A DNA stretch of 64,000 nucleotides from Gigantopelta aegis (taxonomy: Eukaryota > Mollusca > Gastropoda > Neomphalida > Peltospiridae): positions 74,182,674-74,246,673 of the forward strand of contig NC_054706.1 in assembly GCF_016097555.1 (NCBI RefSeq), in the 5' to 3' direction. The translations under genes and the position numbers were made by a program. Of this stretch, positions 2,236 through 23,435 are shown piece after piece (position 1 is the first letter of the stretch; the number at the start of each line of letters is the position of its first letter). The notes below the pieces were generated by a model. That model ran no database searches and had not been told where the DNA came from. It saw nothing but the letters and a program-made list of their open reading frames with translations.

Positions 2236-5200
2236 GATATACACATAATACACAATAGGTATAATAATATAACAGTGTTATAAGCAGTAGTATACTTTAA
2301 ATGTTAACCATTACGTATTGTCTGTAATTATGCTGTATAGATATGAGAACAGAGTTAATCACATTTAGGAACATACATAATTTCTTTGTCGTTGATCGCT
2401 TTTTCGAATTAAATAATTGACAGAATTTATAAGTATTGGGTCTGTCATAATAATATTTTTTTAGATATATGAATCTTTCATTTGAGAAATATGTACACTG
2501 AAATAAATAATGATACTCATCACCTAAAGTGGTGTTACAGAGAGGACATTTTCGTTCTTGTCTATCGATATTTTGCCATCGGCCAGTTTCAATTGGTAGA
2601 TAGTGATTACAAGTCCTGAATCGACAATATATTGTTCGCAGTTTTTCAAGTAAATATAGAAGATAATGTTCGCATGAAAGAGTCGATTTGAAAATTCTGT
2701 ATGTGGAACATTTCGGATATGAATTTAAATGATCATTCCAAGCTTGTATATACTGATCTTGTAGTCTTTGACTTCAATATGAGTAAATGCTTTCTTACTT
2801 GTAATATTTTGATTTAACCAATAATTTCCCAAGCCTAACATGTTTAGGGTATCTTTTATCTTAATTAACCAATTAAATCTATATCCATGATTAATAGTTT
2901 CACATATCATGGTTCTGTATAATATTGCTGATATCTTAGAGGCTTTTCCAGTTATGAGCGAAGCCCAAACATTTAGCATCCTGGTTTTAATCTTAACATC
3001 TAGGGGAAAAACTCCCAATTCACCATAAATCATAGGGAGTGGGGAACTCTTTCTAAGTCTCAGTATGTCTCTTAAGAAATTTAATTGAACTTGTTCAATA
3101 TTTTAGCTATTACCAAGTCCCCAGATTTCTGAGGAATACAGGAAAATTGGGACAATAGTACTATAAAAAATACGCAGCTGGCAATCTATAGGTAGATTTA
3201 AATTTCTAATTCTAATGTTTAGTAACGTCATTGCTTTTTAAGCCTGCGCTATAAGAGTTTGTTTGGCGTCAACAAATGATCCAGTTCTAGAAAATATAAT
3301 GCCTAAATATTTGTATGTATCAACAATGTTCAATTTGATGTCTTTAATATAAAATGATTTATTTCTTGGTGGTTTTGAACCAAATATAAGTATTTTAGAT
3401 TTCTCAATATTTATTTTTAATCTCCATTTTTAACAATATTCTGAAAAAACATTTAATGATTTTTGTAGGTCCTCAGGGGATTCAACTAGAATAACAGTGT
3501 CATCAGCGTATAGTAATAAAGTAATTACTATAAATAAATCAATGTTGTCTTTTTTGTACTCTAATTTAATACCAGTGCATTGTTTCTCTTTTAATGAGTC
3601 CTGTAGGTCGTTTAAATATATAGCAAATAAAATGGGTGAACGATTTTCACCCTGATGTACACCGTTTTGACATAGGAAATAAGCAGAATATTAGTTACTA
3701 TGACTAATGCATGATTTAATTCCTTGGTACATGTTATAAACAATTCTTAAGAATTTACCATTTACATCTAAATTTAACATCTTTTGCCATAAACCTGTTC
3801 GCCATACTGTATCAAATGCTTTAGAAAAATCAACAAAGGCACAATACAGTTTTTTCTTTCGTTGTCGTATGATTTCATATAAAGCATATACGGAAAAAAT
3901 ATGATCATTTGTACTATAATGTTTACGGAAACCGGCTTGATTTTCGCTGACCTTTTCAGTAGATTCAACAAAAACAGTTAATCTGTTATTTAAAATAGCT
4001 GTAAAGAGTTTTCCAAAACAACGAACAAGTGTAATAGGTCTATACGACTCGGGTTCTTTTGGACTACCATTCTTCTTGTATATAGCTTTAATAATACCCT
4101 TTAACCAATCATCTGGCAGTATGCCACTATTTAGAGTAAGATTAAATAATTTTGTAAAAATAGGAAGGAGTTTACTTTCTGCATATTTAAGATATTCGTT
4201 TGGAATTTCATCAATGCCCATAGCTTTGTTGTTTTTAAGATTTTTAATAGCATTTAATTATTTCACCATTAAGTATATTATTTTCATACGAAATATCGAT
4301 ATTTATTTCATCATTTTCATCATCATTCGTTTTATTAATGTCTTTAAACTATTCAAATAGTTTATCTATTTCTGTTTGTTTCACTTGTAGTACTATTGTC
4401 ATTTATTGAGTTAAGTAATTTCCAAAATTCTTTAGCTTTACTTGTTTGCATGTTTCTTATTTTTTCTTCCGATGACTTATCATGTTTCCGTTTATAAAAT
4501 TTCACATTTTTTCGATATTTCTTGCCGAGATTTATCATAGATAAGCGATCAATATTACATTTTGAATGGTTAAATTTAAGTCGTGCTTTGTGAAAATGGT
4601 ATCTTGCTATTCTACATTCCTTACCAAACCTAACTTTAGATGAAGGTTGTTGTCGGTTTTTTACTGCATTAGTCTGATCAGAAATACCAACAGTTTTTTT
4701 GGCACTTGTTTTCATAATATTCGCCAAATTGTTTACTAATCTGTTTATTGTTTCTTCATTAATTGCATCACTATTTATAGATTCATTTTCGATATCGGAT
4801 AAAAACAGTTCTATGTCTTCGTCGTCAATGTTATTACAGTATGTATTTGCCGAGTTGATATAAAGTTTTCTTATTTTGTGTTTCCTTTTACATTTGTTAG
4901 TAACTTGATGTACTTTCGAATTAGTATCAGCTGAAAATTCCAGTTCGAGATAAATTGGGCAATGGATATCAGAAAGTATAGGACTGAAATCGTTAATCTG
5001 GAATTCGTTTATATGCTTTAGAAGCGATAGAGAAGCAATATTAGTCAACTACAGATGCGTCTTTACATGTAAATTTTTCTATATATCTGTCGTTGCCAAG
5101 GCGACCATTTACAATAAACAAGTTAGTAGATTTACACGTATCTAGCAGTTAAAAACCTGTGTTATTAGTTTTAACATCTTGGCTAATTCTATTCAAAGGG

Positions 5201-5923
5201 ATATTCAAGTTAGCTAGACATGTAGCACTATTCAAATATCCATTCACTCGTTCATCTAGATCAAGCAGGTCAGCAATATTACAATCAGCAATAAAATCAG
5301 GTAAAGTACTAGTCCTGGCATTCATACCACCAAGTAGAAGAATATAGTCCGTCTTATTTACATGCTTTTGTATTTCTTGTTTTACAGTATAAAAAGTGTC
5401 ATCATTATAATATTTTGAGTTGTCTGATGGAATATAGACCGCACCAATATGTAAATCATCCTGCAATTTTAAATACTTTCTGTCAATTTTACACCAAAGT
5501 AAATATTCCGATTCAATGTCTAAAACAGTTACATATTTGCTTATTTCTTGCTTAATAAGTATAGCAATACCTCCAGATCTACGTTTGGTTTTGGTCTGAC
5601 GGTTATTACAGCGCATAACATAGCCTGGGATATCAATACTGTCATAACAATCTAGTTTCGTCTCTAGGAAACATACAATGTCATAATTATTAATAAAATC
5701 AAACATTTCTGGAAAATTTAATTTCTGTCGAAGACCACAGACAGTTAATGTTGCAATCCTTAGATATGCTTGCTTAGCATTGGTCTCTTCACTGATACTG
5801 TATATTTTTTCATTATCGGGATTGCATTAGTACCGTTTATATTTGATGTATCCGTTATGTTATGTGCTGCATCATTGTTGCGATCATAAAATAAAGTTCT
5901 AGAAGCATTATTATAAACATAGT

Positions 5924-7266: not shown

Positions 7267-7698
7267 TCAATAAAAAAAATCTATAACATGGCTGTACGAC
7301 ACATCGTTTCCATTTACAACGTCATTTGTCATAGGGTTATATACAATGTTGCCATGAATAACCTCACACGGTATATTCATATCATGGAAGTTGTTTGTTC
7401 CAGCCGTTATATCTTCTTTGACGACTGCATGAATGGGAGTTCGATGTGTCACACAACGCTGATCAACAGAAGTTGACCACTGAACACAGTTGGTATGCCC
7501 AAGCTGACACGAGTTGCAGTCGTTTTGGTAACAGTATATTAGCTTGGTTATAAATGAATGGCTGGAACAATGTTTGACACCACTAGCCAAACTGATAGCT
7601 GTTCTGTTGGGGTAGGTGAGGAGCAGTGGGTCCATGTGGGGTATGATTGACTACATGTTGTGGATAATACAGTGTCTGTGGTGGTAATGAGCCCGGGT
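7267..7698 (-). pseudogene. LINE ORF1 end and start of ORF2 region
   Basis: On the minus strand, the segment next to the Polinton (about 7,560-7,698) reads as a proline-rich tail with SLPPQTLYYPQHV that is in frame with the ORF1 tail at 18,165-18,300 across the Polinton. A second open stretch (7,267-7,635) has a cysteine-bearing segment (CNSCQLGHTNC) and leads toward the ORF2 linker. No independent host gene is implied. Confidence 0.55.
7693..7698. repeat. Polinton target-site duplication, left copy
   Basis: CCGGGT directly precedes the AGTAGTATGGGGG terminus and is repeated at 18,159-18,164. Six-base duplications are the Polinton/Maverick norm. Confidence 0.88.
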
Positions 7699-8004
7699 AG
7701 TAGTATGGGGGCCTATATAGAGCCATGACCTACTTTCCGTGACCTTGACCGTGATGACGTCACGGCCTTGTCACGTGATCTCGTCCTACTGACCCAGCCC
7801 TGACCTACTTAGACTGGCCTACTGTGCCGTGTGCAACGTCCTACTGACCCGGCCCTGACCTACTTAGACTGGCCTACTGTGCCGTGTGCAACGTCCTACT
7901 GACCCGGCCCTGACCTACTTAGACTGGTCTACTGTGCCATGTGCAACGTCCTACTGACCCGACCCTGACCTACTTAGAATGCCCCCTGACCTACTTAGAC
8001 TGGC
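7699..8004 (+). repeat. Left terminal inverted repeat of the Polinton, with 55-bp subrepeats
   Basis: The outer part (7,699-7,784) carries a TATATAG word, a perfect CRE-type palindrome TGACGTCA (about 7,755) and CACGTG (about 7,773). The inner part is four 55-bp units starting at 7,785, 7,840, 7,895 and 7,950, each with CCTACTGACCC, GACCTACTTAGACTGG and TGTGCCGTGTGCAACGT. The reverse complement of the whole arrangement lies at 17,850-18,158. Confidence 0.93.
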
Positions 8005-8012
8005 ACGAAGAG

Positions 8013-8020
8013 TATAAAAA
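8013..8020 (+). promoter_or_regulatory. TATA box for PC4-like gene
   Basis: TATAAAAA immediately inside the left terminus, 65 bases before the ATG at 8,085. Similar boxes precede the other Polinton genes. Confidence 0.6.
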
Positions 8021-8084
8021 GGATAGATACGGTTTAATTGTCATTCGCTCGCCGAAAAAGATCAGATCTACGTTCAATTCAGAG

Positions 8085-8342
8085 ATGGCCTGTTCCACAA
8101 GTGATGAAGCGAGATGTCGTCTAGAACTTGGAACTAACGTCTACGTGGTGGCCAAGTTATGGAAAGGGGACACCGCTATTCACATAAGGAAATTTGACAG
8201 TGACAAGGGGAAAACTTTCCCCACCAAGCGAAGTATTGCCCTTAGTTTAAAGCAGTGGATCGAACTGTGTGGATGTACGGGTCAGATAGACGAAAGGTTT
8301 TCAGCCTTGAAACAAGGGAAGGATGACACATGTTCATGCTAG
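8085..8342 (+). CDS. PC4-like single-stranded DNA-binding protein (Polinton)
   Basis: 85 aa counted from the ATG downstream of the TATA box at 8,013; the open frame extends upstream into the terminal repeat, but that part is unlikely to be translated. Residues about 17-75 match the PC4/Sub1 fold: VYVVAKLWKGDTAIHIRKF, then a turn, PTKRSIALSLKQW and a short acidic end. In eukaryotes PC4 domains bind single-stranded DNA and assist transcription; in a mobile element a role in replication or late transcription is plausible but inferred. It sits first in a plus-strand gene row and is followed by a second PC4-like unit. Confidence 0.8.
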   Translation: MACSTSDEARCRLELGTNVYVVAKLWKGDTAIHIRKFDSDKGKTFPTKRSIALSLKQWIELCGCTGQIDERFSALKQGKDDTCSC

Positions 8343-8343
8343 T

Positions 8344-8601
8344 ATGGACAAGAACTTTGCTGGGGTGGACCTGCGACAGTGATGGTGGTGTGATGAAACG
8401 AAATCCGTGAAACCTTCGAAGAAGGGAATATTCCTTTCTCTACCACAATGGGGGAAACTGAAAGGCTGTTTCACAGTCATATGTGACTTTGTACCAGAGC
8501 TGAACTCGATTGTTCCCTGCGCCATGCAAAACGACCATCAAAACCAGATGGGATTTCTTCAGTGTAACTTCTGCAACCCTAACGAGTGTCACCAGTGGTG
8601 A
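8344..8601 (+). pseudogene. Second PC4-like unit (Polinton fossil)
   Basis: The stretch contains KPSKKGIFLSLPQWGKLKG, which closely resembles the PC4 core motif, after a GGVDLRQ-like strand. The unit seems to be a tandem paralogue of the preceding gene, or the second half of a double-PC4 gene, and is partly decayed. The C-terminal part (CNFCNPNEC) may be a metal knuckle. Confidence 0.55.
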
Positions 8602-8630
8602 ACGAGTTTTGTTTTGGATGAACTCGAAGA

Positions 8631-8638
8631 TATAAAAG
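8631..8638 (+). promoter_or_regulatory. TATA box for BIR gene
   Basis: TATAAAAG lies 62 bases before the ATG at 8,700. The ATG at 8,640 is only two bases downstream of the box, too close to be in the transcript, which decides the start chosen for the next gene. Confidence 0.6.
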
Positions 8639-8699
8639 AATGGATTTATGGTTTACACTTCATTTGCTTTGTGACTGTGCTAGAGAACAGACGTGTTTT

Positions 8700-9275
8700 A
8701 TGATTCTGACATTCCTGTGTCTTGTTGCACTCTATCTGGAACGAAGATATTCGAGCAGTGTTAGTAGCAGCAGCAGTAGCGACGAGGATGACATCTTGGT
8801 CTGCAAATGTTCAGAAAGACATACAATCAAATGTAAAAGAGTGGCTACCAAACCAGAAGAACATTTCATGGATCAAACGGATGCTGCCTGTGACAATATG
8901 GATGAAAATGAAGATGGTGAAATCAAAGAAACCATGGATAAAACAGATGCCGCTCAAGAATATAAAACAGACGCTGCCTGGGATGATGAATATGAAGAAG
9001 ACTGCTGTTCGAGACGTTACCTGTTCTGCCATCGTCCCGAAATGCGCCACGTCTACACGAGGATGCAGACATTTGGGTGGTGGCCAATACAGTTACGCCA
9101 GACACCGAGGGAGCTCGCCAAGGCTGGTTTCTTCTACACAGGGGATCACGATGCCGTCGTCTGTTACTTTTGTGGTCTACGCGCCTACCGATGGCAGATA
9201 ATGGATGATCTAGTGATGGAACATTACAGACTTTCTCCAAGATGTCCCCATGTGAATAACGTGTTCAGACATTAG
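8700..9275 (+). CDS. BIR-domain (inhibitor-of-apoptosis-like) protein in Polinton
   Basis: 191 aa from the ATG at 8,700. A short hydrophobic N terminus (ILTFLCLVALYL) could anchor the protein in a membrane. It is followed by a serine-rich and acidic linker with three short TDAA-containing repeats, then one BIR domain in the last 85 residues: MRHVYTRMQTFGWWP, ELAKAGFFYTGDHDAVVCY, C..C, EHYRLSPRC. The CxxC..H..C zinc ligands and the Gly-Trp surroundings are present. BIR domains bind caspases or IAP antagonists and can block cell death; viruses use them to keep host cells alive, so that role is inferred here. No RING finger follows, so it would not be a ubiquitin ligase. The gene looks whole. 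Confidence 0.88.
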   Translation: MILTFLCLVALYLERRYSSSVSSSSSSDEDDILVCKCSERHTIKCKRVATKPEEHFMDQTDAACDNMDENEDGEIKETMDKTDAAQEYKTDAAWDDEYEEDCCSRRYLFCHRPEMRHVYTRMQTFGWWPIQLRQTPRELAKAGFFYTGDHDAVVCYFCGLRAYRWQIMDDLVMEHYRLSPRCPHVNNVFRH

Positions 9276-9369
9276 ATGTTTCAAACACGTGTGAGACACC
9301 TGTATGTTTTTGTCATAACTGTATGTTTTGTCATATATTTTATGTACTACATTTTTGAATCTGTTGTTT

Positions 9370-9376
9370 AGTAATA
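9370..9376 (+). terminator. Polyadenylation signal after BIR gene
   Basis: AATAAA-containing word (TAATAAATTTTG) about 95 bases after the stop codon, with T-rich sequence downstream. Confidence 0.5.
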
Positions 9377-9753
9377 AATTTTGTGTTGTATCTTTTGAAT
9401 CCGTTATTTATAAATAGCATGACTTTATGACATATAGGCTAGTTAAGAATTATGTCTCAGTGGGAACGGTATCTCGATGGATTTACTTTACTTGGTATAT
9501 GTTTTCCCCAATATCCATAGCTAAAGTAGGGTAGTGTGTAAGTGTGTCCCTGCATGTGTAAAATGTCTAAAAAGTGTCCCTCTAGTGTAAATATGTGTCC
9601 CTGAGTGTGTCCCTGGGCTGGCTCGGTGGGATCCTGGGTGGGAAGTTTATAAATCAGATGAGAGGGCAAGTTCATTTACGTTTGATACTTCTGTGTGACA
9701 GACAGACACAAAATCAAATGTTAAAATAGCACGAGAAAGTCACAGGAAGTAGG

Positions 9754-9763
9754 TATATAAATA
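9754..9763 (+). promoter_or_regulatory. TATA box for the 102-aa protein gene
   Basis: TATATAAATA, 51 bases before the ATG at 9,814, in line with the spacing of the other Polinton promoters. Confidence 0.55.
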
Positions 9764-9813
9764 AAATAGTTTTGAAAACTCGTCATTTGAGGTAGAACCT
9801 TCAGAGGAGCAAC

Positions 9814-10122
9814 ATGTCAGACCAATACAAATTATATGTACCCGACGTAGACAAATGGACCCGTTTCTACAAACTGCAGGCACAAGGCAAACTTCAACCT
9901 CACTTCGAAATTCAACGTGGTGGGAAAAGTCAGATCATATACAGCGTGGATCGATGCCTAGAACTCTACGATCCCACGTGGAAAAAAGAAAAAGAGGAAC
10001 AGAACAAACCCTCGGCACCCAATGTTGTCATGGTCTCCCCAACACAACAGGTGGTAGAGAAAGTCGAGGCCGAGCAGAAACGGAAACGAGAACAGAGTGG
10101 CGTGGAACAGAAACGACGATAG
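9814..10122 (+). CDS. Small basic-tailed Polinton protein of unknown function
   Basis: 102 aa. Residues 1-55 form a compact, mixed-charge segment (YKLYVPDVDKWTRFYKLQ, then HFEIQRGG and RCLELYDPTWKK). Residues 55-102 are charged and end in KRKREQ and QKRR, which look like a nuclear localisation or nucleic-acid-binding tail. I recognise no family. It lies between the BIR and ATPase genes, where Polintons may carry minor virion or accessory genes, but no such function can be read from the sequence. It has its own TATA box and the frame is intact. Confidence 0.65.
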   Translation: MSDQYKLYVPDVDKWTRFYKLQAQGKLQPHFEIQRGGKSQIIYSVDRCLELYDPTWKKEKEEQNKPSAPNVVMVSPTQQVVEKVEAEQKRKREQSGVEQKRR

Positions 10123-10167
10123 CAGACTGGCATGAGTCAAAAACGGCACAAGCATTTCTGAGAAGAC

Positions 10168-10176
10168 TATAAAAGG
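10168..10176 (+). promoter_or_regulatory. TATA box for zinc-finger/ATPase gene
   Basis: TATAAAAGG, 56 bases before the ATG at 10,233. It is the best TATA consensus in the element. Confidence 0.65.
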
Positions 10177-10232
10177 GGGCATGGCAGTTTCAACATCGCC
10201 AGTTCAGGTCGAACACTTCAACAGTCAACAAC

Positions 10233-10380
10233 ATGAATCAGTGTTACATTTGCGAAAAAAAATATGTTTGGACCCACGACCTAACTCGGCATGTACGAAC
10301 TAAACATGGACTCTTGGAATCTGAAAATAAGCCGCAGCAGTAGCAACAGCAACAGCAGCAGCAGCAGCAGCAGCCCCTAA
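10233..10380 (+). pseudogene. C2H2 zinc-finger leader with CAG tract (Polinton fossil)
   Basis: Begins MNQCYICEKKY and completes a C2H2 finger (C-x2-C-x12-H-x4-H) within 25 residues. A CAG/CAA-rich glutamine tract follows. The segment runs straight toward the ATPase coding region and may have been its N terminus. The fossil is not intact. Confidence 0.6.
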
Positions 10381-11502
10381 GATTGTTACATCCGTTCACC
10401 ATGATCGTGTCGGGACCCACGTCGTGTGGAAAGACATTTTTGTTGTACAAACTTCTAAGGGATGGTAAGATCTTCCCATCGCCTCAACGCATCATTTGGC
10501 TCTACAAACGATGGCATCCCCTCTATGATACGATCAAAATGGTTGCTCGAGTGAAATTTGTTCAAGGCATACCCGAGAATTTGGAAAAGGATCGTTATTT
10601 GGATTCGAGAGTCAGAAATCTCATTGTGTTGGTCTACAGCTGGAAAAGACTCTCGCATCACCGACCTGTTCACGGAAGGAAGTCACCACAGAAACCTCTC
10701 TGTGATTGCCATCAACCAGAACCTCTATAACAGCAAGGACCCGACACAGAGAAGAAACTGTCATTACCTGGCACTGTTCAACAACCTCATCGACAAGCAG
10801 CAAGTCCTAACCTTGGCACAGCAGATATATCCTGGAAATACTCGTCATTTCATGCAGCGGTTTGAGGAAGCTACCCACAGGCCCTACGGACATCTCTTGG
10901 TGGACTTGAAACCGACCACGCCCGAACATTGGCGCCTTCGACCTAATGGTTTAGAGACGGGGCCGTCCGAATGGTATAAAAGCACGAACGTAACGGCGAA
11001 TGTTTCAGAAGAGTTGCAGCCACCGACGGGGAAAGAGCTCTACATGCAAATCATGCAAAGAAACGCATTCAAAAGAAAACTACCAGGCATACCCGCCTAC
11101 GAAAGTGACGACGAAGAGGTGGAACCCTATCTGAAAAAAGTCAAGAGGATGCAGTCTTGCGATACGTGTGGTCTGGTCTTTAAAGACGGAAGCGACTTGC
11201 AGCGACATCTGCGATTTAAAACGTGCGAGGAGGGAAATGAAAAAGAAGAAGAGCTGTCGCCCGACCTGGAAAACGAAGGCATTCGTCTCATGGTGGAACG
11301 TGAATTCGACATCAATCATGACTATATCGAAAGCAAGAGAAAACGCTACGAAGAAAAAAACATGTCCCAAGATGCCATCGAAAAAACCATGAAGACTTTA
11401 CAATGGAAGTTATTTAAAGACACGTACTCTCGCTTTCTGACCTATATGCATTACTTTGACAAAGACCCCAACACGAGGAAACTTCTAGTCTGTGAATCCT
11501 AA
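10381..11502 (+). pseudogene. A32/FtsK-like DNA-packaging ATPase (Polinton fossil)
   Basis: An N-terminal Walker A motif GPTSCGKT with preceding hydrophobic strand (FTMIVS) and a following QRIIWLYKRW segment are typical of Polinton and NCLDV packaging ATPases. Further on, LSVIAINQNLYN and RRNCHYLALFNN match the sensor region of that family. The C-terminal third adds a second zinc finger (CDTCGLVFKDGSDLQRHL) and a charged helical tail. The enzyme would pump genome DNA into a capsid. The copy is broken, with about one break in this gene. No capsid gene is found nearby. Confidence 0.82.
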
Positions 11503-12190
11503 CCGAGATGTCAGACCACAGATTTGTTCTAAATTAAATCAGTATCGTTCCTGGATCGGCGAATATTTGGACGAAGTAGACGACCACGATACCGATGATG
11601 ATAATACTGATGATGAGGACGAAGATGAAGAGAAATGAACACTAATATTATTCACATGTCGCCCTTAAGGCCTCTTGATGTAACCCAATGTGTGCCCATT
11701 TTATATATGTGTCAGTGATTTGTAATTTAGAAATAAATGAAAAACCAAACCATTGCGTTTGTTTTTTGTGTTTTTTAATCTATGACTAGATTTGTGATTG
11801 GATATTTCTACCGCTACTTTATAGTAGCAAGAGCTGTGTGTACAAGACAGAACATACCACGACCTTTGATATACCAGACATAATACACTGGTTGTCTATA
11901 AAGGAAATACTCTAGGGAAATACTTGTGTTTAAAATGCAGTTAAAATATCATAGGTTAGGTTGGAGCGTTGAGTTGCAGTCACGCGTTCTTTCTTCAAAG
12001 CAATGGGCTGGGGTGTTTCACACACACACACACACATTCCTTTCTTCCCTTAACAAACATTCCTTTCTTCTCCTTAACACATATGCCTTTTTTCTTAACA
12101 AACATTCCTTTCTTCGAGACAAATATGTCTTTCTTTCCCTATGACTAAAACAAAATATTAAAAATAAATATTTGTGTTCAATTAATCTTT
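11503..12190. other. Polinton non-coding stretch after ATPase
   Basis: A short acidic coding-like remnant (Asp/Glu-rich, ends about 11,638) follows the ATPase. AATAAA-type words occur near 11,731. 11,800-11,900 holds a decayed SINE middle (ACATACCACGACCTTTGATA). 11,960-12,130 has a CA run and repeated CATTCCTTTCTTC words. No gene is supported. Confidence 0.5.
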
Positions 12191-12197
12191 ATTTTAC

Positions 12198-12491
12198 AAG
12201 GAAGGAAATGTTTTATTTACTCAATATATTTTATTTTACGGTTATACGGACATATGGTTAAGGACCAAACATATTTTGAGGGAGGAAACCCGCTGTCGCC
12301 ACTTCATGGGCTACTCTTTTTGAATAACAGCAATGGATCCTACACCATCCCACAGACAGGATAGTACATACCACGGCCGTTGTCCAGTTGTGGAGCACTG
12401 GCTGGATATAGCCCAATGGGCCCACCGACGGGGATCGATCCCAGACCGACCGCACATCAAGGGAACACTGAGTTACGTCCCGTCCCCACAG
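12198..12491 (-). mobile_element. SINE, head-A family, near full length
   Basis: On the minus strand it begins with a tRNA-like head: GGGACGTAACTCAG (A box) and GGTCTGGGATCGATCCC (B box). It continues with the CCAGTGCTCCAC and GGATGGTGTAGGATCC body and ends in AAATAAAACATTTCCTTCC. It is inserted in the Polinton next to the ATPase. Confidence 0.85.
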
Positions 12492-12519
12492 GGTTATTAG
12501 AGGCTGCTTGAAAAAAAAA

Positions 12520-12580
12520 TCGTAACATAATAAATAAATAAATAAACAAATACAGTAAATAAATAAAAACAAATAAATAA
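12520..12580. repeat. (AAAT)n-rich simple repeat
   Basis: Runs of AAATAAATAA interrupted by CAAATA. Similar A/T tetranucleotide sequence is found at 16,500-16,540. Confidence 0.8.
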
Positions 12581-13030
12581 ACTTTCAATAACTAACTCAT
12601 AATAATAAAACTCTTAGGAAAAGGAACTCAGTACCCTCAAAAATGTATTTTAAAAAAAAGACAGGAGTGTTTGAATGAATGTGTGTGATAGGTATGACCA
12701 GTGTCTCTCCGCTCAAAACGATGGACGGATGGATGTAGGCACTGTGTTTTGTTTTCACTACAATATATATATATTGCCAATGATTTGAAAATTTCAAATT
12801 TCACTGTGGATACTGGGAAAAACATATGTCAAGTAAATCCACTGTATATCAGTCATGCCTAATTGTGGGGACCATGCAAATTACATTGATCACCTGTTGC
12901 AAAAATTTTAGATGTGTACATGATGGGTAGCATTGAACCATTGAACAACACAATCTCTGTATATTTAATAGGTTACATCCACATATACTGACTAAAAACA
13001 AAATCACAATACACCTCTAAAGGCATACTA

Positions 13031-13270
13031 TTATCCTGTTCAATTATTTAGACCCAAAGTTTTTTGCAAATGTTACGTTTATTTCCTATTCGATATTTGT
13101 TTTCTTTGCATTTACATGAAAACAAACCCAAACCCCGACAGGTTTTATATACAAATCATCATATAAAATGCACGAAGTTGACTTAATTCCACTTTTTAAA
13201 AATCTCTGTGTGTTCGGAATGCACGTTATTTCTCCTATAAATAACTAAGGACATTTGCATATCAAAAGAT
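13031..13270 (+). repeat. Left terminal inverted repeat of mariner-like element
   Basis: Pairs with 16,107-16,346 over about 240 bases with few differences; blocks such as AAAGTTTTTTGCAAATGTTA and GAATGCACGTTATTTCTCC appear reverse-complemented on the other side. Confidence 0.93.
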
Positions 13271-13557
13271 TGGGATCTGAGGCTACGTGAAGGCCATTAT
13301 AGCTTGTTTCACTAAATCAAGGTTATTATTGTTTTGCAGTGTGTAACAGCATTGTCTAATCTTTCCGTTAAACATAGATGTAAACAAACAGAACATGTAA
13401 CCCTTTCTTGTAGGTGCATTATATTTAATCAATTTAGCTAATGTATTATGTATTTTTATTTTATTATATCAATTATATATTAGCATACCATACCTAACCT
13501 AACACAACTGAGGTGTAGCACAGTAATAAACACAAATCACCTCACACACCGCAGGAA

Positions 13558-13561
13558 TGTG

Positions 13562-13594
<33 letters not shown>

Positions 13595-13622
13595 CAGAAG
13601 ACCGGGGGGGGGGGGGGGGGGG
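13558..13622. repeat. (TA)n followed by poly-G
   Basis: GTGC(TA)n to 13,591, then CCCAGAAGACC and a run of about 20 G residues (13,602-13,622), a common assembly weak spot. Confidence 0.9.
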
Positions 13623-13635
13623 ATAAAATGTCAAA

Positions 13636-13826
13636 GGCCACCAACATCAAATAATAATAAAAATGTTATTTAATTTGCCTCTAAATTGGGAACTCATACA
13701 TATATATATATCGTCATCAGCTTTCCGTTGACGGTGTAATTAAATCTACATCTGATGAGTGAGAGCAATAATTCAACTCTCTCACGAAACAAGCCTGTCA
13801 TGTAGAGAAAAACATACACTTTTTAA

Positions 13827-13862
<36 letters not shown>

Positions 13863-13948
13863 TTTATGGTGGTGCTAGGGGCTGGGCCACCAACATCAAA
13901 TAATAATAAAAATGTTATTTAATTTGCCTCTAAATTGGGAACTCATAC

Positions 13949-14008
<60 letters not shown>

Positions 14009-14033
14009 TTTATGGTGGTGCTAGGGGCTGGGG
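13636..14033 (+). repeat. Tandem 249-bp repeat, retrozyme-like, two copies
   Basis: Copy 1 is 13,636-13,884 and copy 2 is 13,885-14,033. Both begin GGCCACCAACATCAAATAAT, share TTTGCCTCTAAATTGGGAAC, and end in TA runs plus TATTTATGGTGGTGCTAGGG. Copy 1 contains a complete hammerhead ribozyme between its TA runs. In copy 2 that middle is replaced by TA repeats only. Direct tandem units of a few hundred bases with one hammerhead each are the known form of metazoan retrozymes. Confidence 0.82.
13726..13828 (+). ncRNA. Type I hammerhead self-cleaving ribozyme
   Basis: All core elements are present in order. Helix I inner strand is CTACAT (13,746-13,751), followed by the CTGATGA core (13,752-13,758). 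Helix II is GTGAGAG / CTCTCAC (13,759-13,765 and 13,779-13,785) with a 13-nt loop. GAA (13,786-13,788) is followed by helix III ACA / TGT with loop AGCC (13,789-13,798), the cleavage-site C at 13,799, and helix I return ATGTAG (13,800-13,805). Helix I extends outward past an internal loop by GTGTA / TACAC (13,734-13,738 and 13,815-13,819) and CGTT / AACG (13,726-13,729 and 13,825-13,828). The termini open in helix I, so it is type I. All seven core bases and the UH cleavage rule are met. Confidence 0.93.
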
Positions 14034-14295
14034 TTTGAGGGTGGGGTGTTACATTTGTAATGCGAAAAACCAAAGGGCTATTGTTCGGACTCGTATGGGT
14101 TCAACCACTTTTTCATCCCACAGACATAGCCCTGAATGTCCAAAATACGATAGCATTGCTTGGTCAATAACATCATTATTTCGATCTATGACTGCACGTG
14201 CTATTGTAGCAATGTGTAAACCACGTAAAATACAAGTTAGGTAGGGTATATAAATTCATTGAAAATGTATTAGTCGACATTCTTGTTATTGTTAT

Positions 14296-15182
14296 TTGAG
14301 GAAAAATATGGGTAAATCGAAAAACACTTCAGTTGATGTAAAATCGTGTATTAAGAACGTTTTCGATTATTGTGAAGATGAATATCAGCGCGGTAGACCT
14401 AGGTATGCTTCTTATCGAATTGTCAATCGAGTTGCCGCTGCACTTAAAGTTTCGGTTTCAACAGTAAAAAGAACTGTGAAAAATCTAAGCTCTACGAATC
14501 CGAGCACAGAAATCACTGTTAAAAAACGCGACCGAAAACTCATCGATTTATTTGATAAAGATGTTATTAGACGACGAGTATACAGATTTTATAGAGAGGG
14601 CGAATTACCTACATTACATAAGATTAACGTGGCTTTAAGGGAGGAATGTGGAATCAACATATCCATATCAACTTTACGAAGAACACTCCATGACCTCGAT
14701 TTTAAATACCAACATATGTCTACAACCGGAAAAGTGATTTTTGAGGACGCCAATATATCAGACAGGAGACTGTCTTATCTCCATGAAATATCCAGTTTAC
14801 GAGAACAGGTGTATTTAATAGTGTACCTGGGTGAATGTCAACCACACAACATCCCACCACTGGACAGATATCCGCCCGGGCACAAGTACCGCCAATCATC
14901 TGCCGAAATCAGACGCTGCTGATCGAGTTCCTAAACTCTGTTCGGTGACTGGGAAGGGAAAAAGACTTATTAAATGATGGTAAAATGACCACGGTGCGGA
15001 GAGAACTTGCACATGCATTGAACTCTGTCACACCTACACACTTCTCTGACGCAGTTAAACATGTAATAAAGATCGAAGAAGATTTTAGAAAACAAAATAG
15101 TTTTATAAGAAATAAAATACCCAATGTGATAGTCCCCCTTAACGAAGATAGTGATGAAGAAATGAGTTTGTCGACTGATTAA
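14296..15182 (+). pseudogene. Mariner-like transposase, DDE core missing
   Basis: The first open stretch (14,296-14,922) has two helix-turn-helix/winged-helix segments of the IS630-Tc1-mariner type: RYASYRIVNRVAAALKVSVS with TVKRTVKNL, then LPTLHKINVALREECGINIS and STLRRTLHDLDFKY. After about residue 160 the expected DDE catalytic domain is not recognisable. A second stretch (14,985-15,182) reads like the family C terminus, with SVTPTHFSDAVKHVIKIEED and an acidic serine end. The middle of the enzyme has therefore been lost by deletion or rearrangement around 14,810-14,990, and this copy cannot move itself. Confidence 0.72.
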
Positions 15183-15344
15183 GTTATTTCTCCATACCCA
15201 TCAGGAGTATTACTTTAATGTATGCATGAACTCTTTAACACCAAAAACAATTTATTTCCATATCATTCACTATCAAACAACCTAACAACCTATAAACTAA
15301 TCGACTAGAAATGCATATAGACTACACATACATACGAGAGAAAT

Positions 15345-15664
15345 GTTTATTTAACGACACACTCAACGCATTTGATATACGTTTATGTGGCGTCAGACAA
15401 AACGGTTAAGGAGCATTATGACAGTGAGAAAGAAACTCGCTACCGCCACATGGGCCACTGTTTCCGATAAGCAATTTTGATAAGCAATAAGGGACGTTTT
15501 ATATGCACCATCCCATAGACAGGATAGCACATACCACAGCCTTTATACATCAGTTGTGGTGCACAGGCTGGAACTAGACACAACCCAATGGGTCCACCAT
15601 GTGGGATCGATCAGTCGACCTACCATGAGCGAACGCTTTACCTCTGAGCTACGTCCCGCTCCAT
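15345..15664 (-). mobile_element. SINE, head-A family, inside mariner-like element
   Basis: Minus-strand copy: head with GACGTAGCTCAGAGGTAAAG (A box) at the right end, body with CACCACAACTGATG and AGGATAGC-type words, and left end ATTTAACGACACACTCAACG. Diverged, with no clear target duplication. Confidence 0.82.
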
Positions 15665-15810
15665 ATACAAAAGAAGCCTTAAGTGGGGTTGGGGTTGTGC
15701 AGAGGGTCACACCTCCACCAATCGCATGCATACCATATTCTTCTCTCTCTCTCCCTATAACCATATAACCATAGATTAAAATATGTTGAGTGCGTCGTTA
15801 CATAAATGAC

Positions 15811-15812
<2 letters not shown>

Positions 15813-15882
<70 letters not shown>
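15813..15882. repeat. (CT)n microsatellite
   Basis: 35 CT dinucleotides without interruption. Confidence 0.97.
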
Positions 15883-15886
<4 letters not shown>

Positions 15887-16106
15887 GTATGTCTCTCCCT
15901 TCTGCGTGCGCTTGTGTATCCCACAATATAATTATAATATTTGATACATATTTTTTTTTCAAACTGAGGTTTTGTCACTTGAACTCCCCACCTGAATCCG
16001 CGTCTGCTTCATGTTTACAGATATTTTCTTAAATATAGGTCATACTACGATTTGTGCGGATAGGACGATAGAACCGAACATTAGTTTGAAACGCACTATA
16101 GAATGA

Positions 16107-16346
16107 TGCTTTTGATATGCAAATGACCGTAGTTATTTATAGGAGAAATAACGTGCATTCCGAACACACAGAGATTTTTAAAAAGTGGAATTAAGTCAAC
16201 TTCGTGCATTTTATATGATGATTTGTATATAAAACCTGTCGGGGTTTGGGTTTGTTTTCATGTAAATGCAAAGAAAACAAATATCGAATAGGAAATAAAC
16301 GTAACATTTGCAAAAAACTTTGGGTCTAAATAATTGAACAGGATAA
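16107..16346 (-). repeat. Right terminal inverted repeat of mariner-like element
   Basis: Reverse complement of 13,031-13,270; ends GAACAGGATAA next to TA. Confidence 0.93.
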
Positions 16347-16349
16347 TAG

Positions 16350-16984
16350 TTTTAAATCTTCTCTGTATACATGGTACAGTTTTAAAGCGTAAATGTCCTT
16401 ATATATGAGTGTGAATATATATGTACCCTAAAATCTAATATAAATTAATTAAACTGCTGTTTAAACATGAAATGTTAAATTTCAAAACAACTTCGTAACA
16501 TAATAAATAAATAAATAAGCAAATAAATAAATAAACTATAAATTATTTTTAAAAAATTAAAATAATAGAAAAAATATAATTTCCCCACTTCAGATACCAA
16601 CGGCGTACCTTCCGCGCTGGACGCGAACTCATTCGCAGTTGACAATTCACGCATGTAAACAAAGTCTGTCATTTAAACCACATATACATATATGCGAGCG
16701 GCGAAGCGCGTTCTTTGGGTATGTTAAAATAGTTCATAATAATCTTGTGAATGCGCTAGCGCGGGAGATATAGTGGGACGAGAATTCTATTTTACACCAC
16801 TTTAAATAATTTCAATTTTCACGTCTTTAAGAATGTAACTTCTAGTTCCGAAGAGTATTGTCACCGACAATAAAACAGAATACCAACGCTTCCCGGGTGT
16901 AAGCAGTTACAACCATTCAACATTCAGTGCGCTAAAATTAAACACACTAGGCCTACCTCGCGTCGGGCTGAATCCGTAGAAGTG
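16350..16984. other. Non-coding Polinton remnant
   Basis: An AAATAAATAA tract at 16,500-16,540, then GC-richer unique sequence (16,680-16,980, with GCGAGCGGCGAAGCGCG). No open frame with a recognisable domain on either strand. Confidence 0.4.
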
Positions 16985-17828
16985 GTTTTGTTTAACGGCA
17001 CCACTAGAGCACCTTGATTTATGAATCATCAGCTATTGGATGTCAAACATACTTTTGACAGTTTTAGAGATGAAACCCGCTACACTTTCCCATTAGTAGC
17101 AAGGGATCATCAATCTAATTAAAATTAGCTCCACTATTACATGTGGATCTAACACCAGCCAGATGGAGCTCATGTCCACCAATCAAAACCTTACTTGCAG
17201 AATCCTGCCAGTGATTTAAAAATAATTTGAAAACATTCCGAATTATCCTGAGGGTATACGATATGTTTCATGTGAATTACGAATGCCTTATTTAGACCAG
17301 TAAAACTAATTTTAATCGGATTGCTAACAACACTGCGTAGTCCCCAATGTCCAGGTAACATTTCGTCTGTAAATAATAATTTAAATGTTGACCAATCACA
17401 CTTCGCCTTTTATAACGTTATTTGGGAGCATACAAATTCTAAAAATATCAATTTTAGTGGCCGCAGTACAGGGAACCATACCAATACGTACGGGATGGGT
17501 TATCAGTCTTCAATTTTACATTAAAAATTATTTATTTATTTATAAAAAAAACAAAAACAACTAAATCAGTCTTCAGTTTTACATTACATATTATTTATTT
17601 TATAAAATAAAACATGTTTTAAGGCATTCGTAATTCACACGAAACATGTCGTATACCCTCAGAATAATTCGAATGTTTTCAAATTATTTTTAAATCACTG
17701 GCAGGATTCTGCAAGTAAGGTTTTGATTGGTGGACATAGCTGGCTGGTGTTAGATCCACATGTAATAGTGGAGCTAATTTTAATTAGATTGAAGGGATCA
17801 TACACTTCCCACAGACAGGATAACACGG
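16985..17828 (-). mobile_element. SINE remnant split by a 681-bp MITE
   Basis: 16,985-17,110 is the 3' part of a head-A/B type SINE (TTTAACGGCACCACTAGAGC, ATCATCAGCTATTGGATGTC). The body resumes at 17,792 with AAGGGATCATACACTTCCC and ACAGACAGGATAACACGG. The interruption is the MITE at 17,111-17,791. The tRNA head is missing. Confidence 0.78.
17111..17791. mobile_element. MITE with about 175-bp inverted repeats
   Basis: Begins CAATCTAATTAAAATTAGC and ends with its reverse complement. The arms 17,111-17,287 and 17,624-17,791 are inverted copies with few changes. AAGGGATCAT lies on both sides (17,101-17,110 and 17,792-17,801), an 8-10 bp duplication of the kind made by hAT or Mutator elements. 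No transposase is present. Confidence 0.85.
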
Positions 17829-17849
17829 GCGTTGCTAAGTACGACGGAT

Positions 17850-18158
17850 CGGGGCCGGGCTAAATAGGTTAGGACTTGACTAAGTAGGTCGGGACTGGTC
17901 CAAGTAGGTCACGGCCGGCCTAAGTAGGTCGGGGCCAGTGAGACGGGGGCCGGGTCAGTAGGACGTTGCACACGGCACAGTAGGCCAGTCTAAGTAGGTC
18001 AGGGCCGGGTCAGTAGGACGTTGCACACGGCACAGTAGGCCAGTCTAAGTAGGTCAGGGCCGGCTCAGTAGGACGAGGTCACGTGACAAGGCCGTGACGT
18101 CATCAAGGTCAAGGTCACGGAAAGTATTCCATGGCTCTATATAGACCCCCATACTACT
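17850..18158 (-). repeat. Right terminal inverted repeat of the Polinton
   Basis: Reverse complement of the left terminus, with GTCTAAGTAGGTCAGGGCC subrepeats, CACGTG, TGACGTCA and the CCCCCATACTACT end. The innermost subrepeats are more diverged than the outer ones. Confidence 0.92.
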
Positions 18159-18164
18159 CCGGGT
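18159..18164. repeat. Polinton target-site duplication, right copy
   Basis: CCGGGT following the CATACTACT end. Confidence 0.88.
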
Positions 18165-18618: not shown

Positions 18619-21600
18619 GTAAACAGAAACGAATTGGAACTCAACAAACTATAACAGAAATTGATAATGAGAACTGAACAAACTGTAACTAATGATAAAT
18701 TAACAAACTGTAAACAGAAACGAATGGGAACTCAGCAAACTATAACAAATTGATAACGGGAACTGTACAAACTCTAACAGAAATCAATAAGGAGAACTGA
18801 ACAAACTGTAACTAATGAGAAATTAACAAACTGTAAACAGAAACGAATTGGAACTAAACAAACTATAACATAATTTAATAATGAGAACTGTAACAGAAAT
18901 CAATTAATGAGTACTGAACCACCTGTAACAGAAATCAATAATGAGAACTGAACAACCTGTAACAGAAATCAATAATGAGAATTAAACTGTAACATAAACG
19001 CATAATGGGAAACGAATAAACTATAAACAGAAAAGAATAAGAACTGAATAAACTGTAGCACAAATCAATAATGAGAACTGAACAACTGTAACATAAACGT
19101 ATAATGAGAAACGAATAAACTATAAACAGAAAAAAATAAGAACTGAACAAACTGTAACACAAATCAATAATGAGAACTGAACAAACTGTAGCAGAAACCA
19201 TTCATGAGAACAAAACAAACTATAACAGAAATGAATAAAAAACTGCATGTTGCACAGACCAATAATGAAAACAGAACAAACTGTAACATAAACGTATTAT
19301 GTGAAATGAATAAACTGTAAACAGAACGAATGAGAACATAACAAACTGTAGCACAAATCATTAATGAGAACTGTACAAATTGTAACAGAAATCAGTAATG
19401 AGAACATAACAAACTGTAACAGAAATCAATAATGAGAACTGAACAAACTGTAACATAAACACGCACGTATAATGAGAAAGGAATAAACTGTAAACAGAAA
19501 AGATTAAGAACTGAACAAACTGTAACAAAAATCAATAATGAGAACTGAACAAACTGTAGCAGAAACCAATCATGAGAACAAAACAAACTATAACAGAAAT
19601 GAATGACAAACTGCATATTGAGAAATGAACAAACTGAAAAGGAATGATAACTGAACAAACTATAGTAGAAACCAATAACGAGAACAGAACCAGTTATAAC
19701 AGAAATCAATAATGAGAACTGAACAAACTATAACAGAAATTAATAATGAGAACTGTACAAACTAACAGAAATCAATGAGAACTGAACAACCTGCAACAGA
19801 AATCAATAAACGAATGAGAACTGAACCAACTGTAAACAGAAACGATTGAGAACTGAACAAACTGTAACAGAAACCAACCACGAGAACAGAACAAACTGTA
19901 ACAGAAATCAATAATGAGAACTGAACAAACTGTAACATAAACGTATAATGAGAAATGAATAAACTGTAAACAGAAACGAATAAGAACTGAACAAACTGTA
20001 GCACAAATCAATAATTAGAACTGAACAAAGTGTAGCACAAACCAATCATGAGAACATAACAAACTGTAACATAAACGTATTATGAGAAATGAATAAACTG
20101 TAAACAGAACGAATGAGAACATAACAAACTGTAGAACAAATCATTATTGAGAACTGTACAAACTGTAACAGAAATCAGTAATGAGAATATAACAAACTGT
20201 AACAGAAATCAATAATGAGAACTGAACAAACTGTAACATAAACACGCACGTATAATGAGAAACGAATAAACTGTAAACAGAAAAGATTAAGGACTGAACA
20301 AACTGTAAAAAAAATCAATAGTGAGAACTGAACAAACTGTAGCAGAAACCAATCATGAGAACAAAACAAACTATAACAGAAATGAATGACAAACTGCATA
20401 TTGAGAAATGAACAAACTGAAAAGGAATGATAACTGAACAAACTATAGTAGAAACCAATAACGAGAACAGAACCAGTTATAACAGAAATCAATAATGAGA
20501 ACTGAACAAACTAACCCAAATCAATAGTGAGAACTGAACAAACTGTAACATAAACGTATATTGAGAAATGACTAAACTGTAAACAGAAACGAATAAGAAC
20601 TGAACAAACTATAGCACACATCAATAATGAGAACTGAACACACTGTAACATAAACATATAATGAGAAACGAATAAACTATAAACAGAAAAGAATAAGAAC
20701 TGAACAAACTGTAGCAGAAACCATTCATGAGAACAAAACAAACTATAATAGAAATGAATGAGAACCTGCATGTTGCACAAACCAATAATGAGAACAGAAC
20801 AAACTGCAACATAAAGTTACAATGGGAAATGAACAAACTGTAGCAAACGTATAATGAGAAATGAACAAACCGAAAATGAATGAGAACTGAACAAACTACA
20901 GTAGAAACCAATAACGAGAACAGAACAAACTATAACAGAAATTAATAATGAGAACTGTACAAACTAATAGAAATCAATGAGAACTGAACAACCTGCAACA
21001 GAAATCAATAAACGAATGAGAACTGAACCAATTGTAAACAGAAACGATTGAGAACTGAACAAACTGTAACAGAAACCAACCACGAGAACAGAACAAACTG
21101 TAACAGAAATCAATAATGAGAACTGAACAAACTGTAACATAAACGTATAATGAGAAATGAATAAACTATAAACAGAAACGAATAAGAACTGAACAAACTG
21201 TAGCACAAATCAATAATTAGAACTGAACAAAGTGTAGCACAAACCAATCATGAGAACATAACAAACTGTAACATAAACGTATGAGAAATGAACAAACTGT
21301 AGCAGAAAGCAATCACGAGAACAGAACAACCTGTAACAGAAATGAATGAAAAACTGCATGTTGCACAGACCAATAATGAAAACAGAACAAACTGTAACAT
21401 AAACGTATTATGAGAAATGAATAAACTGTAAACAGAGCGAATGAGAAGATAACAAACTGTAGCACAAATCATTAATGAGAACTGTACAAACTGTAACAGA
21501 AATAAGTAATGAGAACATAACAAACTGTAACAGAAATCAATAATGAGAACTGAACAAACTGTAACATAAACACGCACGTATAATGAGAAAGGAATAAACT

Positions 21601-23435
21601 GTAAACAGAAAAGATTAAGAACTGAACAAACTGTAACAAAAATCAATAATGAGAACTGAACAAACTGTAGCAGAAACCAATCATGAGAACAAAACAAACT
21701 ATAACAGAAATGAATGACAAACTGCATATTGAGAAATGAACAAACTGAAAAGGAATGATAACTGAACAAACTATAGTAGAAACCAATAACGAGAACAGAA
21801 CCAGTTATAACAGAAATCAATAATGAGAACTAAACAAACTAACCCAAATCAATAGTGAGAACTGAACAAACTGTAACATAAACGTATATTGAGAAATGAC
21901 TAAACTGTAAACAGAAACGAATAAGAACTGAACAAACTCTAGCACACATCAATAATGAGAACTGAACACACTGTAACATAAACATATAATGAGAAACGAA
22001 TAAACTATAAACAGAAAAGAATAAGAACTGAACAAACTGTAGCACAAATCAACAATAAGAACTGAACAAACTGTAGCAGAAACCATTCATGAGAACAAAA
22101 CAAACTATAACAGAATGAATGAGAAACTGCATGTTGCACAAACCAATAATGAGAACAGAACAAACTGCAACATAAAGTTACAATGGGAAATGAACAAACT
22201 GTAGCAAACGTACAATGAGAAATGAACAAACCGAAAATGAATGAGAACTGAACAAACTACAGTAGAAACCAATAACGAGAACAGAACAACCTATAACAGA
22301 AATTAATAATGAGAACTGTACAAACTAACAGAAATCAATGAGAACTGAACAACCTGCAACAGAAATCAATAAACGAATGAGAACTGAACCAACTGTAAAC
22401 AGAAACGATTGAGAACTGAACAAATTGTAACAGAAACCAACCACGAGAACAGAACAAACTGTAACAGAAATCAATAATGAGAACTGAACAAACTGTAACA
22501 TAAACGTATAATGAGAAATGAATAAACTGTAAACAGAAACGAATAAGAACTGAACAAACTGTAGCACAAATCAATAATTAGAACTGAACAAAGTGTAGCA
22601 CAAACCAATCATGAGAACATAACAAACTGTAACATAAACGTATGAGAAATGAACAAACTGTAGCAGAAAGCAATCACGAGAACAGAACAACCTGTAACAG
22701 AAATCAACAATGAGAGCTGAACAAACCGAAAAGGAATGAGGACTGAACAAACTACAGTAAAAACCAATAACGAGAACAGAACCAATTATAACAGAAATCA
22801 ATAATGAGAACTGAACAAACTAACCCAAATCAATAGTGAGAACTGAACAAACTGTGATATAAACTTATATTGAGAAATGACTAAACTGTAAACAGAAACG
22901 AATAAGAACTGAACAAACTGTAGCACAAATCAATAATCAGAACTGAACAAACTGTAACATAAACCAATAATGCGAAGAACTAAATAAACTGTAACAGAAA
23001 TCAATAATGAGAACTGAAAAAAGTATGACAGAAATTAACGAACGGAACAAATTGGAGCAGAAAACTAATAATGAGAAACGAACAAACTGTAACATAAACT
23101 TATAATGAGAATTAAAAAACAGTAAACAAAAACGAATGAGAAATGAACTATAACAGAAATAAATAAGATCTTAGCAAACTGTAATAGAAATGAACGAACT
23201 GAACAAAGTGAAAAATAATACAATAATACAAAATGAACAAACTGAAGCAGAAACCAGTACTTAGCCTAATGCGAAGTGAACAAACACTTTAAAAAATCTA
23301 TAGGCTAATAGAGAAAACTGTAATAGAAATCAGTAATGAGAAATGAACAAACTAACAGATGTGATTAATGGAAACTGAACAGACGAAATTGAACAAGACA
23401 TTCAAGCTGAATAAACGAAACAGAATGTTTAGCAT
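18619..23435. repeat. Satellite array of about 34-bp units with higher-order structure
   Basis: Over 100 imperfect copies of a unit containing CAATAATGAGAACTGAACAA and ACTGTAACAGAAAT. Longer blocks recur: a TCAGTAATGAGAACATAAC block at 19,391 and 20,174 (783 bases apart) and again near 21,500, and an AATCAATAAACGAATGAG block at 19,801, 21,003 and 22,364 (1,202 and 1,361 apart). Many apparent minus-strand Cys/Phe/Ser-rich frames are artefacts of the unit lacking stop codons in some phases. Units decay toward 23,200-23,435. Confidence 0.95.

Follow-up and report, generated by a model that had tools for sequence, protein, structure and literature searches.

The window, i.e. the whole stretch of 64,000 nucleotides analysed, was assigned by genome search to G000:C8:74182674-74246673 of the 1.15-Gb assembly of the gastropod Gigantopelta aegis. 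Positions 7692 to 18163 are occupied by the remnant of a Polinton (Maverick), bounded by terminal inverted repeats (TIRs; 7692-7910 and 17947-18163) sharing 95% identity. Packaging-ATPase-like frames lie at 10344-11502, several of their homologs carrying PF04665, and other frames match PC4, BIR and C2H2 domains. None of the 10 frames scanned matched a pPolB or an integrase, and the element, assigned from TIRs and ATPase homologs, is therefore named a remnant only. The BIR (inhibitor of apoptosis) domain was detected, well above cut-off, in a frame at 8640-9272 (plus strand), the PC4 domain in a frame at 7941-8339. Tandem repeats of 55 bp (7782-7978, 17947-18075) reside in or beside both Polinton TIRs. 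Beside the right one extends an array of about 4.5 kb (18637-23125), made of 135 copies of a degenerate 34-bp unit (69% match), and related units occur also at about 1960-2100. The remnant of a LINE-type retrotransposon, featuring RVT_1 and endonuclease/exonuclease frames, is located at 3691-5706 on the minus strand. Copies of dispersed repeats are found at 12198-12470, 15340-15662, 16985-17108 and elsewhere in the window.

The Polinton remnant hosts, between its TIRs and as the preliminary description had recognized, a Tc1/mariner-like element (13027-16350, plus strand), within which one of the dispersed repeat copies falls. Its TIRs (13027-13268 and 16109-16350) are 242 bp long and 99% identical; TA precedes the left end, and TT follows the right one. 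A TA target, TIRs and a Tc-type transposase are hallmarks of the Tc1/mariner group, and all are present, the right end reading TT. The left boundary, TA followed by CTATT, is the same in all seven sister copies in which it was located, a string search having missed it in one of the eight. The N-terminal part of the transposase (14309-14922, plus strand) matches PF13592 and PF01498 below cut-off, and is 97% identical over 85% to the relative P0001. Close to the DETW motif of P0001 the frame is interrupted; a C-terminal-like frame follows at 14949-15182.

Upstream of the transposase a segment of the element has been duplicated. Copy 1 (13636-13884, plus strand) measures 249 bp and is split by an inserted sequence; copy 2 (13885-14033, plus strand) measures 149 bp, lacks any ribozyme, and serves as a built-in empty site. 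The two have in common a left part of 76 bp (99% identity), and about 27 bp plus TA at the right (100%); in our reading, the joint of the 149-bp duplication shows a short GG overlap. The preliminary description regarded this region as a retrozyme-like tandem of two 249-bp direct repeats, the second having lost its ribozyme. The copies are not of equal length, and sister elements contradict the supposed loss. All eight sister loci read contain a single direct copy of the left segment (A), next to which come a TA tract and sequences resembling the right segment (B), and the ribozyme is found in none. Since the eight copies are free of ribozyme and carry the repeated segment once, the ribozyme must have been inserted, not lost. 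The host segment A-(TA)n-B is ordinary mariner-like sequence. That A and B might be confined to the window was considered and rejected, as the 63 bp of A are a high-copy mariner sequence, 100% identical at the 40 places scored of 630 candidates. Sister pieces are mostly 91-98% identical to the window; one is 82%, and a TA-rich one 88% identical. The target tract, represented in sister copies by one TA tract, is divided in copy 1 into a left part (13699-13711) and a right part (13829-13859). After CATAC the eight sisters and copy 2 have G, whereas copy 1 has A; copy 2 therefore resembles the ancestral site. In our reading, the ribozyme entered copy 1 after, or around, the local 149-bp duplication. 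In one sister, L163 (G000:C3:33524367-33524510), the TA tract holds an inverted piece of segment A, indicating that such tracts also rearrange. At 13562-13592 of the window a TA run replaces about 37 bp found in sister mariner copies.

The inserted ribozyme is a hammerhead. Hammerheads of type I are defined by the core CUGANGA...GAA, the pair A15.1-U16.1, an H residue at position 17 and three helices, helix I being open. The core and the three helices are all found on the plus strand at 13745-13806, a stretch running from inner helix I to inner helix I and enclosed, as previously noted, by the mariner TIRs. Helix I (13745-13751/13800-13806) and helix II (13759-13765/13779-13785) count 7 bp each, helix III (13789-13791/13796-13798) 3 bp closed by an AGCC loop. 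CTGATGA lies at 13752-13758, GAA at 13786-13788, and C17 at 13799 fits the cut earlier predicted after 13,799. An outer extension of helix I with an internal loop (13726-13828, plus strand) folds as originally drawn (-23.5 kcal/mol); by itself this energy does not reach significance (z -1.57; 15 of 200 shuffles folded as stably). This is the single complete hammerhead detected in the window by a descriptor scan of both strands. Shuffled windows yielded on average 0.13 hits at loose thresholds and 0.01 when stems had to sum to at least 16 (100 shuffles); at another setting, two hits were obtained in 200 windows, both strands included.

A covariance-model match, proposed at the outset as a check, was obtained, and fell short in score: RF00163 matches a 106-base stretch with 26.6 bits and an E value of 5e-5 (about 0.03 by our scaling to the whole window), below the gathering score of 34 bits, which is a database threshold and not a structural feature. 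The assignment to type I rests on the complete core and on paired stem changes across families. An Rfam scan of the whole window gave no RF00163 match at gathering score, and a 601-base stretch gave none at E<=1, a silence read as a filter effect. RF00163 run over the own genome found nothing at E<=1e-3, and 14 control genomes were equally silent, which deprives this result of weight. Searches of viral contigs gave no match to the same ribozyme or to its flank; a generic type I pattern occurred there in at least 120 stretches.

Further places carrying the ribozyme disclose its source. The segment was found at 42 places at least, window included (40 of 1,087 candidates were scored), with an identity of 96-100% in 41 of them; the remaining one reaches 84% along a longer, TA-rich stretch. 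The existence of other genomic copies, on which the earlier interpretation relied, is borne out by at least 41 further scored places, though the tandem spacing seen among the places listed is that of much longer units. Four places follow each other on one strand at intervals of 2,397-2,398 bp (C3:53300221 to 53307414). This locus, L141, is a tandem array of a Penelope-like element (PLE); its units measure 2,398 bp, and every junction between them bears a hammerhead. In the numbering of units, position 1 is the first base past the predicted cut, and position 2398 the base that directly precedes the cut. Judging from sequence identity, the ribozyme segment is the 3' part of the PLE in the loci fetched. 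The window hosts a 5'-truncated solo copy (13712-13834, plus strand; 13712-13828 without TA), corresponding to unit positions 2311-2398 plus 1-35, 100% identical to the L141 unit over 123 nt, 117 of which are other than TA. Residues 13712-13762 encode the last 16 codons (RHQLSVDGVIKSTSDE) and the stop of the PLE frame, ending as the 768-codon frame of L141 does. The stop codon, TGA at 13760-13762, falls in helix II, as it does in L173-L176, where it starts 8 nt past C3. The final codons of the protein thus double as ribozyme sequence.

Of the three complete L141 units, two carry the 768-codon frame (counted from stop to stop) uninterrupted, and in the third it is broken. Of 7,992 proteins scored, 2,037 are homologous to it at E<=1e-3; the top-ranking homolog is from Solemya velum. 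The Pfam scan of the frame itself gave no match at E<=0.1, and the domain calls consequently derive from homologs and motifs: P0122 matches GIY-YIG (PF01541) above cut-off, P0223 matches RVT_1 (PF00078) at E 9e-6, below cut-off. The GLYRDD and GIY-YIG-type columns, which we take to be the reverse transcriptase (RT) and GIY-YIG motifs of the PLE frame, are invariant in the six aligned sequences. A C-terminal extension of about 35 residues is absent from five aligned homologs, in two of which a few residues are placed there; P0134, 97% identical, has it, with one additional residue in the part that encodes helix I. No solved structure matched P0123. RT and GIY-YIG domains in one frame, as denoted here by homolog domains and aligned motifs, are the mark of canonical PLEs according to the portions available of PMC11167929.

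The hammerhead is not confined to one family. A search of the same genome with the P0123 protein gave at least 65 matches (63 of 1,464 candidates scored). The family found in the window (Fam1) is mostly 58-63% identical to P0123; further PLE groups are about 53%, 47% and 50% identical. A complete hammerhead was found in 12 of 14 junction stretches fetched, distributed among three families. L171, a Fam2 copy, has a mismatch in helix I, and the 551 bases read of L172, from a fourth family (the 50% group), contain no hammerhead. Helices I, II and III measure 7, 7 and 3 bp in Fam1, 6, 9 and 3 bp in Fam2, 6, 4 and 3 bp in Fam3, and the paired bases of helices I and II differ among families, pair types being listed from hand-set helices. 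Conservation of the structure while the sequence changes supports a selected ribozyme. Shuffling of three junctions (10,000 times each) gave 1, 0 and 0 hits. Rfam found no hammerhead in the 14 junction stretches, not even in L173, which bears a hammerhead identical to that of the window, and this marks the scan as limited by the filter. The core lies 145 nt (Fam2) and 26 nt (Fam3) past the stop codon. Where it is visible, the ATG of Fam1 and Fam3 is located at nt 136-138 past the cut, at 138 in the Fam1 unit. The motif GAGC(A/G)CT(C/T)T starts 53-65 nt past the cut in Fam1, Fam2 and Fam3, and is repeated before the ATG in Fam1 and Fam3 (unit positions 53 and 120 in L141), present once in Fam2. 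The Fam4 stretch L172 also carries GAGCACTCT. The first motif copy sits between the two PLE 3' ends (L165-L178, L141), and the motif could possibly be an RT binding or start signal. The long 3' ends fall about 92-102 nt past the cut in all three families.

The ends of the PLE copies were mapped on 36 fetched, partly overlapping stretches, merged into 42 distinct aligned pieces that make up a non-random sample. A true 3' end is visible in 35 of them, at unit position 34-35 in 24 and at 98-100 in 11. Among the remaining seven, one is an arm split by BLAST at 2398 and continuing to 34, three extend beyond their stretch, and three belong to the interior of locus L127, which is rearranged with breaks at 1891-1893. 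None of the 35 arms ends at the predicted cut. As to 5' ends, the only entry at position 1 is the BLAST-split arm; the nearest real end is at 2393, and the others are scattered between 150 and 2372. The length of one 2,398-nt unit is exceeded by five pieces, one of which runs off its stretch. The 3' end runs into a (TA)n tract in 33 of 35 arms, 23 of 24 of the 35-type and 10 of 11 of the 98-type; the locus-finding query contained TA, which favours TA flanks in the former, not in the latter. In the window, too, the right TA tract is continuous with the PLE 3' end. TA tracts on both sides were seen in six of 35 arms, window included, two of the 35 having no 5' flank in view.

Arms are also arranged head to head. 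In the nine composites having both ends in view (L142, L143, L144, L145, L147, L148, L149, L151, L156) end 35 is invariably paired with end 98-100, in what is a non-random sample; two further composites are cut by the fetched stretch. The asymmetry looks as if each target strand had its own RT start. Tandem or partial-tandem copies with pseudo-LTRs (pLTRs), inverted head-to-head arms and an optional tail, the traits of PLEs, are thus all found here. The two classes of ends match the optional 'tail' carried by one of the inverted pLTRs of Penelope, as described in the accessible part of PMC3846280, and the two RT starts of PAc (PMC11167929, as far as available).

The locus is very probably explained by a 3'-terminal hammerhead of a young, multi-copy PLE, a 5'-truncated copy of which occupies a (TA)n tract belonging to a mariner-like element that in turn lies in a Polinton remnant. 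Identities of 95% (Polinton TIRs), 99% (mariner TIRs) and 100% (PLE) give an order of insertion, suggesting that the Polinton remnant is the oldest component, followed by the mariner-like element and then by the PLE. No report of a hammerhead nested in a mariner-like element within a Polinton was found in the literature searched.

A decayed retrozyme, whose 249-bp unit would be the monomer of a circular RNA and whose second ribozyme would have been erased by recombination between TA runs, is very improbable. Tandem layout, low GC, unit size and type I hammerhead do resemble metazoan retrozymes (PMC7229834, in the part accessible), and a circular fold of the 249-nt unit is lower in energy than 200 of 200 shuffles (z -3.1). 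The two flanks alone, without TA and ribozyme, however, pair no better than shuffles (92 of 300 and 482 of 1,000 as good); the retrozyme-like rod fold is thus owed to the TA runs and to the ribozyme, and was rejected. Moreover the flanks are mariner sequences, present once per element, the ribozyme belongs to the PLE, and at the 42 places listed, hammerheads sharing a strand are always at least 2,394 bp apart. Retrozymes are short tandem repeats (about 170-400 bp), each provided with a hammerhead; in the window a single hammerhead was detected, which cannot release a circle by itself.

A native origin of the hammerhead, as a functional component of the mariner-like element, has practically nothing in its favour beyond the position of the ribozyme, inside the element, sense to the transposase and upstream of its frame. 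Absence from the eight sister copies and identical copies within the PLE elsewhere speak against it. Just as negligible is the probability of a chance match to the motif: the score below the Rfam threshold and the modest fold z speak for it, but the expectation is about 0.01 per window, and hammerheads with changed yet paired stems mark the unit junction of three PLE families. Recombination or gene conversion between TA tracts, or misassembly, as the origin of the TA-flanked fragment is improbable, if somewhat less so than a retrozyme. TA tracts are unstable, and the 149-bp duplication, the TA run at 13562-13592 and the L163 inversion all bespeak rearrangement; against this, the 3' end in the window is the one used by 24 of 35 PLE arms, and five other arms reside in the same two-sided TA context.

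A severely 5'-truncated PLE copy (117 nt besides TA) was very probably reverse-transcribed into the mariner-like element, at its (TA)n tract. As the hammerhead makes up about the last 103 nt before the shorter PLE 3' end, even very short insertions keep the whole ribozyme, and the one in the window is a by-product of insertion, which could at most cut a read-through transcript. In the PLE, the RNA presumably self-cleaves in vivo, and cleavage would separate tandem transcripts into single-unit RNAs. The ribozyme may in this way process tandem transcripts into mRNAs, in competition with their use as templates. Retrotransposition would in turn draw on RNA uncut, or re-joined, at the hammerhead. 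All sampled arms with a visible 3' end start 34-100 nt past the cut, and read through an intact cut site. Because RT starts downstream of the cut, cleaved linear RNA lacks the start, and the sampled templates must have been uncut or re-joined; the lack of sampled arms ending at the cut likewise speaks against cleaved linear RNA as the template of insertion. In agreement with this, ribozyme mutants of PAc still insert in vitro (PMC11167929, portions available). Intact cut sites and pieces exceeding one unit would fit either a circle copied more than once round or an uncut linear multimer. It is on balance unlikely that the PLE replicates by way of a circular RNA processed by the hammerhead and then re-ligated, the route proposed for retrozymes.

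Hammerheads in PLEs are already known, and the case described here belongs with them; their role is posed as an open question in the accessible parts of PMC7761336 and PMC6155905. The same texts call the hammerheads of PLEs and Terminons minimal, devoid of helix III and of loop contacts. As in G. aegis, they are located in pLTRs; by contrast with those review descriptions, helices I, II and III measure here 6-7, 4-9 and 3 bp. The closest parallel is PAc, a Poseidon element of Anolis carolinensis. As far as PMC11167929 is available, PAc shares the single RT and GIY-YIG frame, tandem copies, a hammerhead at the unit junction in pLTRs, an AT-rich target, and two RT start sites downstream of the ribozyme. 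It differs in that its hammerhead, described with stems I and II, overlaps the start of the ORF (cut 26 bp in), whereas that of Fam1 overlaps the stop and has a 3-bp helix III. RT of PAc starts within the ORF, where the sequence shares no homology with the target; here both starts precede the ATG and adjoin TAT, the targets being (TA)n. In the Penelope families of Adineta vaga the tail is 31 bp, about 63 bp here, and the word 'hammerhead' is absent from the main text of PMC3846280. The non-LTR retrozymes of metazoans (PMC7229834, in part) similarly carry type I hammerheads with a helix III of two pairs plus a tetraloop, and are low in GC. What distinguishes G. aegis from them is the lack of a short ribozyme-bearing tandem array, and the presence of an autonomous protein-coding PLE along with a solo truncated copy.

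The genome offers three related PLE families, with open reading frames and hammerheads structurally kept yet different, and dozens of near-identical insertions, the ends of which can be mapped against the cut site. As no sampled arm ends at the cut, the ribozyme would act elsewhere, in mRNA processing, or before re-ligation. Whole ribozymes are at the same time scattered into other transposons, where they may be mistaken for retrozymes. If circles are used, an autonomous PLE whose hammerhead bears helix III would be the missing link that connects PLEs with retrozymes, and new retrozymes would have their seeds in 5'-truncated solo copies like that of the window.
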